Shown: piece after piece, positions 8,497 to 64,000 of the stretch | Layout of the letters: each line of letters starts with the position of its first letter | Numbering within the stretch: position 1 is the stretch's first letter | From: an uncultured Granulosicoccaceae bacterium | GTDB lineage: Bacteria; Pseudomonadota; Gammaproteobacteria; Granulosicoccales; Granulosicoccaceae | Direction: 5' to 3' | Assembly (NCBI GenBank): GCA_937951345.1 | Contig: CALFCF010000009.1 | Span: forward strand, 62,001 to 126,000 | DNA: 64,000 nucleotides | Notes under the pieces: generated by a model | Seen by the model: only the letters and a program-made list of their open reading frames with translations | Told to the model about the DNA's origin: nothing | The model's database searches: none | Program-made: the position numbers and the translations under genes

Positions 8497-8636
8497 GGGG
8501 CCTCTGATTTATTAGGCGAGGCAGGCAGGGCAAGGCGAAATTTGGCGAAAAAGCGGAGTGTATATGCGAATACATGGGCATTTTGAGCCGAATTTCAACG
8601 CAGCCCTGGCAACGCAGGCAATAAATCAGAGGTTCC
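8497..8636 (-). mobile_element. Element B copy 1 (140-bp MITE-like)
   Basis: A 140-bp element with 17-base inverted ends (GGAACCTCTGATTTATT at the right end read inward; the left end has GGGGCC instead of GGAACC). It is flanked by a TTAG target duplication (8493-8496 and 8637-8640). It is inverted relative to the two copies at 58.5 and 58.7 kb and nearly identical in sequence. It encodes no transposase. A 4-bp YTAR-type duplication is what IS5-group transposases leave, so it is probably moved in trans by such an enzyme (inference). It lies between the acyl-CoA dehydrogenase and enoyl-CoA hydratase genes. Confidence 0.88.
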
Positions 8637-58489: not shown

Positions 58490-58629
58490 GGAACCTCTGA
58501 TTTATCGCCTGCGTTGCCAGGGCTGTGTTGAAATTCGGCTCAAAATGCTCATGTATTTGCATATACACTCCGCTTTTTCGCCAAATTTCGCCTTGCCCTG
58601 CCTGCCTCGCCTAATAAATCAGAGGTTCC
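58490..58629 (+). mobile_element. Element B copy 2 (140-bp MITE-like)
   Basis: 140 bp with perfect inverted ends GGAACCTCTGATTTAT and a perfect TTAA target duplication (58486-58489 and 58630-58633). It is in the same orientation as copy 3. It stands in the divergent promoter region between the DUF3429 and FAN1-like genes. Confidence 0.92.
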
Positions 58630-58735
58630 TTAACTTATTGACTGACCGAAGTGTTTAATCGGTTTTAACAATGAAGGTTCTGTTATAAATTCTGTTTTAA
58701 AAAAGTCAGCTTTAAATGGATCTGAACTAACCTGG

Positions 58736-58875
58736 GGAACCTCTGATTTATTGCCTGCGTTGCCAGGGCTGCGTTGAAATTCGGCTCAAAATGCTCATGT
58801 ATTCGCATATACACTCCGCTTTTTCGCCAAATTTCGTCTTGCCCTGCCTGCCTCGTCTAATAAATCAGAGGTTCC
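58736..58875 (+). mobile_element. Element B copy 3 (140-bp MITE-like)
   Basis: 140 bp with 17-base perfect inverted ends (GGAACCTCTGATTTATT). The target duplication is CTGG (58732-58735) and CTAG (58876-58879), one mismatch. It is 106 bases from copy 2 in the same direction and 98 bases before the FAN1-like start codon. Confidence 0.9.
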
Positions 58876-58973
58876 CTAGATTGTAAAAGGTTAGCCTTCC
58901 CGGATAATCCGGATCATAGCTGTATCGACCTGGGTTGCGGCGACTAGTGTAGCCTGCCGACACGCACGAGTAC

Positions 58974-60836
58974 ATGATGAAACAGGCAGTGCAGTCTGAT
59001 AAGCCACAACGCATGCAATCCAATGCCGTACAGAATAATCAGGAACTGCCGGTTGATTATTATCTGATCAATTTCCAGCAACTTATACACTTTGTGCTAG
59101 AGGCGTATGACGATCTGCTGAGTGCTGACGAAAAATCTTTTGCTGGTGATTTTCTTGCTCTCTCTGCACCGGCGCGCATGCTTTATGTTCGCCTGCTTTG
59201 CCGAAAACACAATGCCTTTCGACTGGATAAGTTGCAGTATTCTGAGATTGGTAACCTCAATGATGCATCAGCCGAACTCGAGTCAGCAGGTTTCGTTATC
59301 TTGAATCCGCTTTTTTCGGTAGATCAGGCATCTCGTCTATTCACCAAGCCGGAGCTAATACAACACATACAATCTCATGCGGAGTTTTCACGGGGTTCAC
59401 CGGAGTCACCACGCATCTCTGGCTTGAAGCAATTAAAGCGCGATGAACTTGAGAACATCTGGCAAAGCATGCAAAGCCCTGTCACCGATGTGTTGAAAAA
59501 ATCCGAATCCGGTGTTCGTGACCAAGCGCTTGACCAGGCATGGCTGCGTTCGATTGATCCGCAACAGGAAAATCTGTGTGGCACTGCGTTAGTGGATATT
59601 TCGAAGATTGCAACGACGGTTGTCGTTAACCGGTCGGAACACTTTGACGTGTTCAGGCTTTGCTTCTTCGGTAATCTTTATCAGGATATGACAGATTTTG
59701 TTCTGCGCGATCTGGGTCTGATGCGATACGAAAGTTATGTTATCGATCAGAATAATCGTCCTTTTGAAACGCGAAAGCAGTTAATAGCTCATCTGGATTA
59801 TTTCAGGATATCAGCGGTTGTATCTGGTGTGAACGAACTAACAACAAACGACATTCTGGTCGTGGAGGCATTGTTACCGGAATCCACTGACAACCATTTG
59901 GAACGACGGCTGGACCGGCTACGTATTGCCTTTGCGCGCCAGCTTGAACGTTTGGATGAGTTTGAGCATGCAGAAAAACTGTACAACAAATGTACCCGTG
60001 CGCCTGCACGCGAACGTCGGGTTCGTATGTTGATGAAACAGGAGCAATGGCAGAGCGCTTTTGCACTTTGCCAGGACGTGCTGAATTGCGTGGTGAGTGA
60101 CGAAGAAGCTCAGATTCTATCCGGGCTGGCAGCAAGGATTGCACGCAAGTGCGATATACCGTTTGCTGATCCATGGGCGTATAAACCGCCGCTTGAGCAC
60201 GCAAAGCTGATTAACGCTGGCGACTCTGTAGAGCAACAAGCTGCAGAACACTATCGGCAGTGTGGTTCTTGTTTTTATACTGAGAATACACTTATCGATG
60301 GTGTTTTTGGGTTGGCTTTCTGGGATGTTATTTTTGCACCGGTACGCGGTGCGTTTTTTAATCCTTTTCAGGTCGGACCGGCAGATTTCCATCAGTTGGA
60401 ATTCAGCCTCTTACGTCGCGACCTGATTGATGAGAAATTCCATCAACTTGAACAGCCGGGTGAATTGAAGCGTCAGGTTGATCTGTTCTTTCAGCAAAAG
60501 CAGGGCATTGTGAACCCTATGGTGAACTGGCGTTACCTTTCAGAGGAATTGCTACAGCTAGCGATTGATCGTATTCCGGTAGTTGATTGGTTAGCCATTT
60601 TTAGACGGTTTCTACTCGATACTCGTTCCAATCGCAGTGGTTTGCCGGACTTGATCGTATTTCCGGATAAACCCTCTATGGACGGATGCCGTTACCGTCT
60701 GGTGGAGGTTAAAGGCCCTGGGGATTCGCTTCAGAAAAATCAGATTCGCTGGATGCGTTTCTTTGCCGAGCAGGGGATTGATCACGCTGTTTGCCACGTA
60801 AGCTGGTCCGATGAAAAATCTCCAGACCATGAATGA
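58974..60836 (+). CDS. FAN1-like VRR-NUC structure-specific nuclease
   Basis: A 620-residue bacterial FAN1 homologue. The N-terminal part (about 85-130) is SAP/DNA-binding-like. The middle is a TPR-like helical section (ERLDEFEHAEKLYNK, about 325). The C-terminal VRR-NUC nuclease has Asp559 in GLPDLIVF and Glu578-Val-Lys580 in RLVEVKGPGD, with a distal Gln in KNQIRWM. FAN1 cuts flaps and unhooks DNA interstrand crosslinks. It overlaps the next helicase gene by eight bases, a pairing seen in other bacteria. Two MITE copies sit in its promoter region. Confidence 0.93.
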   Translation: MMKQAVQSDKPQRMQSNAVQNNQELPVDYYLINFQQLIHFVLEAYDDLLSADEKSFAGDFLALSAPARMLYVRLLCRKHNAFRLDKLQYSEIGNLNDASAELESAGFVILNPLFSVDQASRLFTKPELIQHIQSHAEFSRGSPESPRISGLKQLKRDELENIWQSMQSPVTDVLKKSESGVRDQALDQAWLRSIDPQQENLCGTALVDISKIATTVVVNRSEHFDVFRLCFFGNLYQDMTDFVLRDLGLMRYESYVIDQNNRPFETRKQLIAHLDYFRISAVVSGVNELTTNDILVVEALLPESTDNHLERRLDRLRIAFARQLERLDEFEHAEKLYNKCTRAPARERRVRMLMKQEQWQSAFALCQDVLNCVVSDEEAQILSGLAARIARKCDIPFADPWAYKPPLEHAKLINAGDSVEQQAAEHYRQCGSCFYTENTLIDGVFGLAFWDVIFAPVRGAFFNPFQVGPADFHQLEFSLLRRDLIDEKFHQLEQPGELKRQVDLFFQQKQGIVNPMVNWRYLSEELLQLAIDRIPVVDWLAIFRRFLLDTRSNRSGLPDLIVFPDKPSMDGCRYRLVEVKGPGDSLQKNQIRWMRFFAEQGIDHAVCHVSWSDEKSPDHE

Positions 60837-63231
60837 GACGTTGTCGGTCGGTGTAAAAGAGCTGATTCAGTTCGCTTGCAGCACGGGTGACTTGGTTCGT
60901 GAGGGCCCTGCAGGCCCGACCGCACGGGAAGGGATTGCTGCGCACAAAAGAATACAGGCTGAGCGTCACAAGGACGAGGAGGTTGAAGTTGCATTGAGTA
61001 CGCATTACATCAAGGATGATGTTTCCATAAAAATCAGTGGTCGTGTAGATCTGATAAACAAGACTGACACTCCACCGATACTCACGGAAATAAAAAGTAC
61101 CTATGTGGCGCTGGAACATCTGTCTGAATCGGTGGTGACTCAATACTGGAATCAGTTGAGAATCTATGCCGCATTGTTTCTGCTCAACCGCGATAACGAT
61201 GAAGATGTGACTTTGGATGCGCAAAGCGACGATTGTCATCTGCGGTTGTTGATCATCAATCTGCGTAACAGCGAGGTACAAACGGCATTTTTGAAGGAAT
61301 CTCGTGCGCAGCTTATAGCCTTTCTGGATGATGCGATAACCACCTGGCTTGCCTGGCAAAAGCGTCTTGCCAGACACCGTGAAGCCATGCGGTTGTCAGC
61401 TACAACTCTGAAATTTCCGTTTCCGGATTATCGACAGGGTCAGTACCAAATGGCTGCAAATGTTTATCGCAGTCTGCGCGATGGCGATCATTTAATGTGC
61501 GAAGCACCAACGGGTACCGGAAAATCGATCTCAGCCGTCTTCCCGGCATGCAAGGCTCTGGCTGAACAGCATGTGCAGCAGATTTGTTATCTGACCGCTA
61601 AAAATTCCGGTAAACAAGCTGCTGCTGCGGCGTTGGCACTGTTGCGACAATCTGGCTTTGATGTTGTTGCGTTGACGATCTCGTCGAAACGGCTGACATG
61701 TCACTGTCAAAATTCCACTTGTGAGCTGATGCCTGATGGCCGTTGCCCGCGTACAGTCGGGTTTTATGATCGATTACCTGAAGCCAGAGAAGATCTGCTG
61801 GATCGCCGCTTACTGGATGGGGATACGATTGATCGGGTAGCTCACCAGCACAATGTCTGTCCGTTTGAATTGTCGCTGCAGATGGTTCGTTATGCAGATT
61901 TTGTAATTTGTGATTACAACTATGTTTTCGATCCGTTGGTTAAACTTATTTCATTAATCGATAACGCTGACACTATCGGATTTCTGGTAGATGAAGCGCA
62001 TAATCTGGCGGACCGTTCCAGAGCGATGTATTCCGCCAGATTAAACACTGCTCAGCTGCGAGAGATCGTGGCGATATGTGAAAACGAGCTAGCCAGTATC
62101 GCCAGTGCCGCAAAATCGTTAGATCGAAAGCTCTCGTCAATTGCCTCATCGTTTGAGTCTTTACCTGCATCCACCAACGAACTGCCTGGCGGATTGATGA
62201 AACAGCTTGATAAAGCTGTCCAGGCAATTCTGGAAAGCGAAGTAGCAGCTGCTTCTCTGCCCAGTGAGCAAAAGTTCAAAGTCTGGGAAGTTTTAAGAGA
62301 GTTGATGCGTAGTCAGGTTATCGGGACTATGTTTGATCACCAGCATCGTTTGTTTGTTGACGAATTCAAGTCCGGTCGACGAAGAAATATCCAGCTCGAT
62401 TTATCCTGTATTGATGCGAGTAGATTCGTCGGCAAAACATTTGAGCAACTACACGCCGCTGTCGTCTTTTCAGCTACTTTGCGTCCATACCATTTTCATA
62501 TGGACATGCTGGGCTTGCCCGAAACGGTTACAGCATTGTCTTTACCGCCAGTTTACAAGCCGGAGCAGACGGGGTGTTATCTTTGTACCTGGATTGATAC
62601 ACGATTCCATTCGCGCCAGAAATCCGGAGAGGATCTTGTGCAACTGATTCATTCAGTGATTAATGCTCGATCGGGTAACTATCTTGTGTTCTTTCCGTCC
62701 TACCAGTACATGCAAACCATTGCCGCGGCTTTTGGCACACGTTTTCCGGGGACTAGAATCCTCGTTCAGGACAGAGATTCCAGCTCAAGTGAGCGGGAAT
62801 CATTTCTGAAAAATTTTGAAAAAGCAGGCTGCACATTGGGTTTTGCAATCATGGCAGGCGTCTATGGCGAAGGGCTTGACTATCAGGGTGATGCATTGAT
62901 CGGAACGATCATCGTGGGAACGGGTTTACCTGGCTATGATCTTAAAATGCAGGAGCGTAAAGACAGTCTTGATACTGAGGGATACAATGGCTTCGACTAT
63001 GCATACCGGTTTCCCGGGTTTGTGCGTGTGCTACAGGCAGCGGGCCGCGTAATCCGCTCAGAGTCTGATAAGGGTGTTGTGATACTGGTTGATCCTAGAT
63101 TCAATACTCAGTTTTACAGGCGAATGTTTCCATCCAACTGGCAAGCCACCCAGTGCGATCAGCAGGACGCTCTGGATCATCAGCTCTGTGAGTTTTGGTG
63201 CGGCTCGAAACGTGAATCCGCAATCACCTAA
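60829..63231 (+). CDS. XPD/DinG-like Fe-S helicase with N-terminal nuclease domain
   Basis: An 800-residue helicase. Residues 1-170 are a RecB/Cas4-like PD-(D/E)XK domain with Asp74 (GRVDL) and Glu87-Ile-Lys89 (LTEIKST). Walker A is APTGTGKS (226-233). The Fe-S cysteines are a cluster at 291, 293, 298 and 306 plus Cys344. The DEAH box is at 388-391, and motif VI is in LQAAGRVIRSES. This is a 5'-3' helicase fold of the XPD group fused to a nuclease. It should act with the FAN1-like nuclease encoded just upstream. ATG 60811 is an alternative start 18 bases earlier. Confidence 0.93.
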   Translation: MNETLSVGVKELIQFACSTGDLVREGPAGPTAREGIAAHKRIQAERHKDEEVEVALSTHYIKDDVSIKISGRVDLINKTDTPPILTEIKSTYVALEHLSESVVTQYWNQLRIYAALFLLNRDNDEDVTLDAQSDDCHLRLLIINLRNSEVQTAFLKESRAQLIAFLDDAITTWLAWQKRLARHREAMRLSATTLKFPFPDYRQGQYQMAANVYRSLRDGDHLMCEAPTGTGKSISAVFPACKALAEQHVQQICYLTAKNSGKQAAAAALALLRQSGFDVVALTISSKRLTCHCQNSTCELMPDGRCPRTVGFYDRLPEAREDLLDRRLLDGDTIDRVAHQHNVCPFELSLQMVRYADFVICDYNYVFDPLVKLISLIDNADTIGFLVDEAHNLADRSRAMYSARLNTAQLREIVAICENELASIASAAKSLDRKLSSIASSFESLPASTNELPGGLMKQLDKAVQAILESEVAAASLPSEQKFKVWEVLRELMRSQVIGTMFDHQHRLFVDEFKSGRRRNIQLDLSCIDASRFVGKTFEQLHAAVVFSATLRPYHFHMDMLGLPETVTALSLPPVYKPEQTGCYLCTWIDTRFHSRQKSGEDLVQLIHSVINARSGNYLVFFPSYQYMQTIAAAFGTRFPGTRILVQDRDSSSSERESFLKNFEKAGCTLGFAIMAGVYGEGLDYQGDALIGTIIVGTGLPGYDLKMQERKDSLDTEGYNGFDYAYRFPGFVRVLQAAGRVIRSESDKGVVILVDPRFNTQFYRRMFPSNWQATQCDQQDALDHQLCEFWCGSKRESAIT

Positions 63232-63371: not shown

Positions 63372-63812
63372 CTATTTGCGAGTAGATCGCGTTCTGCGTG
63401 AAACCGGCTTACGTCGTGTAGTCGCCTTGCGAACCGGTTTTTTAGTAGCAGCCTTACGCTTGGTAGCGGTCTTCTTGCGAGCAACAGTCTTCTTGGCAGC
63501 CTTGCGAACCGGCTTTTTGGTAGCAGCCTTACGTTTGGTAGCGGTCTTTTTGCGTGCAACAGTCTTCTTGGCAGCCTTGCGAACTGGCTTTTTAGTAGCA
63601 GCCTTACGCTTGGTAGCGGTCTTTTTGCGTGCAACAGTCTTTTTGGTAGCAGACTTACGGACCGGCTTCTTCTTGGTGGTCGCCTTTTTCTTTGTGGCAG
63701 AGCGTTTCTTAGCGGCTGCCTTTCCAGCTGCTTTCTTTTTTCCTACTGTACGCCGCGTTGTCGATTTAGGAGACTTTCGCGTAACAGTCTTTTTGGAAAT
63801 TTTTGATTTCAC
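63372..63812 (-). CDS. Histone-H1-like Lys/Ala-rich repeat protein
   Basis: A 146-residue, extremely basic protein of Lys, Ala, Thr, Arg and Pro. Three nearly identical 25-residue repeats (AKKTVARKKTATKRKAATKK-PVRKA) fill residues 60-135, after a KKKAAGKAAAKKRSATKKK stretch. It is like the H1-type proteins AlgP/Hc1-like of Gammaproteobacteria, which bind DNA non-specifically. The GTG at 63812 has TGAGGAACACCTC before it; an upstream frame to 63857 adds 15 residues with no ribosome site. Confidence 0.88.
   Translation of the reverse strand: MKSKISKKTVTRKSPKSTTRRTVGKKKAAGKAAAKKRSATKKKATTKKKPVRKSATKKTVARKKTATKRKAATKKPVRKAAKKTVARKKTATKRKAATKKPVRKAAKKTVARKKTATKRKAATKKPVRKATTRRKPVSRRTRSTRK
63396..63640 (-). 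repeat. 75-bp tandem repeat within the H1-like gene
   Basis: Three copies of a 75-base unit encode the 25-residue Lys/Ala repeats. The units are nearly identical in DNA, so copy number may vary between strains. Borders are approximate. Confidence 0.75.
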
Positions 63813-64000
63813 GAGGTGTTCCTCAATTGTCTGTTCAAGTGCCGAAGCACAAAGCAAATATCGTACACATAAGCAAAAAAGTTTAGAAAAAAGTGTGAAC
63901 GCGTGTGCTTTTTGGTTTACGTGTTTACCACTCAGAAAACTTCCCGGAGCAATACAAATGCCTGGACACGATCAACTGTGTGATTGTTCGAGGTCTTTTT
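63813..64000. other. Upstream region of the H1-like gene
   Basis: 188 bases with no gene visible to the window edge. The promoter of the H1-like gene must lie here; none is certain. Confidence 0.35.

Follow-up and report, generated by a model that had tools for sequence, protein, structure and literature searches.

Does a FAN1-type nuclease gene that overlaps a helicase-nuclease gene point to two enzymes that work together on crosslinked DNA? This question is raised by a locus near the end of a 64,000-nucleotide stretch of DNA (hereafter the window; positions 62,001 to 126,000 of contig CALFCF010000009.1, assembly GCA_937951345.1) from an uncultured Granulosicoccaceae bacterium. An earlier note, made from the letters of the window, had read the gene pair as a minimal machine for unhooking interstrand crosslinks, comparable to FAN1 plus XPD/FANCJ in eukaryotes. 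Comparison across genomes showed that the pairing of FAN1 with this helicase is not due to chance and that both genes form a coupled, co-inherited unit. The explanation we favor, and regard as reasonably probable, is a translation-coupled two-gene DNA-repair operon in which the helicase-nuclease and FAN1 act jointly on crosslinked DNA.

Linkage and co-inheritance of the FAN1 and helicase genes

In a survey of 398 Pseudomonadota genomes, FAN1 was found in 55, the helicase in 43, and both in 36, with FAN1 located directly upstream of the helicase on the same strand in 35 of these 36 (the two genes lie apart in genome G599). This co-occurrence yielded a Fisher p-value of 3e-30, which overstates the independence of the observations because the surveyed genomes are related. 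A second draw of 369 Gammaproteobacteria, overlapping with the first sample, gave a similar arrangement, the helicase directly following FAN1 in 12 of the 13 genomes that have the helicase. Of 13 genomes from the family to which the window belongs, 10 carried both genes and the other three carried neither. Most pairs are joined by a 4-bp stop/start overlap (i.e., ATGA, GTGA, or TTGA).

Moreover, both genes appear to share their history. For 38 pairs (among which L004 and L104 are one contig), the distances between FAN1 proteins correlated with those between helicases with a Mantel r of 0.94, whereas permutation gave at most 0.47; the two gene trees had 22 of 35 splits in common. Inheritance of the pair thus looks vertical, and the unit is favored without being obligatory.

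The boundaries of both open reading frames (ORFs) in the window, including an overlap of eight bases, proved to be as first noted. An alternative helicase ATG at 60811 would yield a protein of 806 amino acids and a 26-bp overlap with FAN1, but the ATG at 60829 was preferred because the L004 orthologue starts at the equivalent position and likewise shows an 8-bp overlap. A third operon gene was rejected, both flanking genes being on the opposite strand. The features of the locus are listed in Table 1.

Table 1. Features of the FAN1-helicase locus in window coordinates (aa, amino acids).
Feature	Position	Strand	Basis
FAN1-type structure-specific nuclease gene	58974..60836	+	620 aa; Pfam VRR_NUC and FAN1_HTH, PaFAN1 match
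FAN1 HTH/N-terminal DNA-binding domain, aa 29-108	59058..59297	+	PF21315
VRR-Nuc catalytic domain, aa 506-611, D559/E578/K580	60489..60806	+	PF08774; PaFAN1 alignment
FAN1 stop/helicase start overlap, 8 bp	60829..60836	+	sequence
DinG-type Fe-S helicase gene with N-terminal PD-(D/E)XK nuclease	60829..63231	+	800 aa; Pfam, 9KQH match, AF2
PD-(D/E)XK (RecB-type) nuclease domain, about aa 1-187	60829..61389	+	PF12705, motif conservation
Walker A, aa 226-233 (APTGTGKS)	61504..61527	+	K232 invariant
Fe-S cluster insertion, predicted ligands C291, C298 (or C293), C306, C344	61699..61860	+	invariant alignment columns
Walker B DEAH box, aa 388-391	61990..62001	+	conservation in homologues
Helicase_C_2 motor domain, aa 607-773	62647..63147	+	PF13307, 133 bits

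The upstream gene encodes a FAN1 orthologue

Pfam assigned both VRR_NUC (E-value of 3e-28; 98.5 bits vs. a cut-off of 23.8) and FAN1_HTH (6e-24; 84.2 bits vs. a cut-off of 27) to the product of the upstream gene, which also matched PaFAN1 (4r89/5y7g) with an E-value of 1.6e-78 and human FAN1 with one of about 1e-29. The PaFAN1 alignment consists of two stretches (aa 20-136 and 225-612 of the window protein), and TPR_14 scored below its Pfam cut-off. The catalytic residues D559, E578, and K580, which the earlier note had called intact, align with D507, E522, and K524, given as the active site of PaFAN1 (PMC9635880). Since these domain assignments, the matches to PaFAN1 and human FAN1, and the triad alignment all concur, the gene encodes a FAN1 orthologue and not a stand-alone VRR-Nuc protein. 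It has the corresponding architecture, i.e., an N-terminal helix-turn-helix (HTH)/SAP part, a central tetratricopeptide repeat (TPR)-like region, and a C-terminal VRR-Nuc domain with the PD...ExK triad. PaFAN1 (PA1865; 4R89, 5Y7G) shares the HTH, TPR-like, and VRR-Nuc regions and the same triad, although only about one third of its residues are identical. Human FAN1 additionally carries a UBZ domain (PMC9635880).

A much closer relative of PaFAN1 links this enzyme to the operon: genome G756 encodes a FAN1 with 93% identity to PaFAN1, and the helicase gene comes next in an overlapping frame.

The downstream gene encodes a DinG-type helicase with its own nuclease domain

The 800-aa partner was assigned PDDEXK_1 (PF12705; 26.1 bits vs. 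a cut-off of 22), DEAD_2, and Helicase_C_2 by Pfam. All of its predicted catalytic motifs were present, as had been noted for the PD-(D/E)XK residues D74, E87, and K89, the Walker A motif, and the DEAH box, and they were conserved: these nuclease residues, K232, and D388-E389-A390-H391 were invariant in 14 diverse homologues, and the same residues except A390 were invariant in 47 homologues. The wider set of RecB-type motif residues (H39, D74, E87-x-K89, and Q109-x3-Y113) was also invariant in 47/47 homologues, which places the N-terminal domain among the RecB-type nucleases.

Its superfamily 2 (SF2) motors, with Walker A, DEAH, and Helicase_C_2, make the protein a DinG/XPD-type helicase. The closest solved structure over the full length is 9KQH (E-value of 6e-98 by sequence), entitled 'Crystal structure of Finegoldia magna DinG in complex with ssDNA and ADPNP' and released on 2025-12-03. 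An AlphaFold (AF2) model of the helicase, built from the 47 homologues with a mean predicted local distance difference test (pLDDT) score of 90, matched the fold of 9KQH over its full length (2.4e-64; template modelling (TM) scores of 0.82 and 0.89). Both proteins thus combine a PD-(D/E)XK domain with an Fe-S helicase, at about 29% identity. The window helicase stayed below the NCBIfam equivalog cut-offs for YoaA (139.6 vs. 680 bits) and DinG (97.5 vs. 598 bits). The earlier note had described it as XPD-like; it belongs to the DinG/XPD-type Fe-S helicases, its nearest match is F. magna DinG, and it is not an orthologue of XPD or FANCJ. XPD and FANCJ helicases have no nuclease domain. Eukaryotic FAN1 and XPD/FANCJ are homologous to the window proteins in fold and sequence, yet they share no joint operon, unlike the genes in the window. 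Based on its family, the window helicase is predicted to unwind DNA with 5'-3' polarity.

All five cysteines proposed to bind the Fe-S cluster exist in the protein (C291, C293, C298, C306, and C344), but only four correspond to the usual ligands. C291, C298, C306, and C344, in the motor 1 insertion, were invariant in 47/47 homologues and C293 was not, while five closer relatives (L106, L108, L109, L110, and L115) have C293 but not C298. Because C293 is variable and exchanges with C298 in relatives, the predicted cluster has four ligands rather than five, with C293 and C298 probably serving as alternatives to each other. A five-ligand cluster is ruled out by this pattern of conservation.

The source genome encodes a second Helicase_C_2 protein, in a 670-aa frame on contig C42, which is possibly a YoaA or DinG; some redundancy is therefore likely.

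Links to the DNA damage response

Upstream regions of FAN1 were scrutinized for an SOS/LexA-type box, which was present in 7 of 48 distinct upstreams; the expected number was 0.16, and controls within genes held none. The distance from the box to the start of the FAN1 match was 35-101 bp, and six of the seven boxes preceded FAN1-helicase pairs. Expression of PA1865 and PA1866 shifts after UV-C exposure, a change that falls outside the regulons known for LexA, Prt, and Alp; ciprofloxacin raises PA1865 (PMC12796719). PA1866 may well be the helicase partner of PaFAN1.

In genome G435 (L192, 2722-3990), the pair is preceded by a gene for a UmuC-type translesion polymerase of the impB/mucB/samB family, a further neighbor with a role in the response to damage.

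Joint action on crosslinked DNA and its alternatives

A role of the pair in DNA repair is well grounded. Both proteins presumably act on the same lesion, which would be an interstrand crosslink, and they may constitute a joint crosslink-unhooking machine whose putative order of steps is as follows. FAN1 requires a flap or fork, and such a structure could be exposed where the 5'-3' helicase is halted by a crosslink: the helicase would open or displace a strand at the blocked fork or crosslink, thereby providing a flap for incision by FAN1. By analogy with PaFAN1, the window FAN1 would incise such DNA, bearing a 5' flap or a fork, a few nucleotides beyond the junction and digest its way past the crosslink, while the helicase's own RecB-type nuclease might trim the unwound, displaced strand. 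Both nucleases of the pair are predicted to matter, judging from the conservation of their active sites.

This mechanism is reasonable because resistance of Staphylococcus aureus to mitomycin C and formaldehyde through its DinG (SaDinG; 8ZEF, 9II8) requires helicase and nuclease activity alike (PMC12345164). SaDinG resembles the window helicase in being a 5'-3' DinG helicase with a fused N-terminal nuclease; however, its nuclease is a 3'-5' exonuclease of another type and not PD-(D/E)XK, and no FAN1 partner has been described for it. A crosslink phenotype has thus been reported only in another subfamily of DinG.

A more specific proposal is that FAN1 and the DinG-type helicase-nuclease assemble into a physical two-protein, two-nuclease complex for interstrand crosslink unhooking; this complex would be a prokaryotic equivalent of incision in the Fanconi pathway. 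We put this forward tentatively, at somewhat below an even chance. If true, the extensive work on PaFAN1 has been done without the partner that this enzyme has in nature. PaFAN1 has served on its own as a model of human FAN1; the conserved, overlapping gene beside it points to a natural setting with a helicase that bears a second nuclease. Joint action, if true, would make bacteria a simple system for studying how FAN1 is loaded and directed to crosslinks. Both enzyme families are already known and the conserved operon appears to be little described; no description of a FAN1-DinG operon was found in the literature searched, although this search missed key FAN1 papers and an earlier mention is possible.

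Of the machine originally proposed, then, several parts held up, i.e., the coupled and co-inherited genes, the conserved nuclease sites, the SOS boxes in several lineages, and the operon around a close PaFAN1 relative, while the single joint machine stays a hypothesis. Several observations weigh against joint action. Among the 398 Pseudomonadota genomes, 19 carried FAN1 without the helicase and seven the helicase without FAN1. In 46 sampled genomes with a helicase not beside FAN1, nearly all of them non-proteobacterial, FAN1 was absent altogether from 45, so that the helicase-nuclease works without FAN1 there; Bacillota with a 9KQH-type helicase, unlike the window, almost always lack FAN1. Furthermore, the PD-(D/E)XK triad was kept in all paired helicases examined except that of G365 (L116), which lacks the PD-(D/E)XK region, and the FAN1 triad in all paired FAN1s examined except that of G162 (L111/L092), in which the catalytic glutamate is changed to lysine. 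Finally, no CTGTN8ACAG box was present upstream of the window FAN1, and the idea that this copy is under SOS control was therefore rejected.

That each gene occurs without the other would also fit co-regulated repair enzymes that form no joint machine, with FAN1 acting at flaps and crosslinks, and the helicase-nuclease at R-loops, G-quadruplexes, or stalled forks like other DinG proteins. Nevertheless, the strict gene order, the stop/start overlap, and the congruence of the trees exceed what a shared regulon needs, and in the window's family both genes were gained or lost together, which makes such separate action rather unlikely.

Excision of monoadducts and intrastrand crosslinks, in the manner of MrfAB or SaDinG and instead of interstrand unhooking, seems distinctly improbable. 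Bacillus subtilis MrfAB is also a helicase and a nuclease encoded together, and it is specific to mitomycin C damage (PMC11194089). However, its families are unrelated to those of the window pair and its polarity is opposite (MrfA being a 3'-5' helicase and MrfB a DEDDh exonuclease), the partner nuclease in the window being of the VRR-Nuc and not of the MrfB type. Moreover, PaFAN1 is a studied interstrand crosslink-unhooking enzyme, and an operon of the same type contains a close relative of it.

A phage-defense module is very hard to credit: although the helicase scored 353 bits against the PADLOC type IV DinG model, such PADLOC matches reflect a generic DinG, FAN1 gave no PADLOC match, the scanned neighbors are ordinary and held no defense genes apart from a sugar hydrolase with one weak match, and inheritance looks vertical, while a type IV CRISPR Csf4/CasDinG identity was rejected given an NCBIfam Csf4 score of only 40.2 bits vs. 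a cut-off of 400 and no CRISPR type IV genes among the scanned neighbors.

Flanking regions

Upstream of FAN1, the neighboring gene on the other strand is a DUF3429 gene. Downstream of the helicase, positions 63372-63857 (minus strand) encode a lysine/alanine-rich tandem-repeat protein with a resemblance to histone H1-like HC2 that is below the Pfam cut-off.

Two copies, 96% alike, of a 143-bp repeat whose ends are inverted (GGAACCTCTGATTTAT...ATAAATCAGAGGTTCC) lie just upstream of FAN1 at 58490-58632 and 58736-58878, and a further copy is located at about 8497-8636 of the window. An Rfam search with this repeat gave no match. It belongs to a family resembling miniature inverted-repeat transposable elements (MITE-like) or repetitive extragenic palindromic elements (REP-like). 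Across the genome, the 16-mer repeat end was counted about 125 times (62 forward and 63 reverse, vs. 0 for the reversed control), often in facing pairs and near contig ends.

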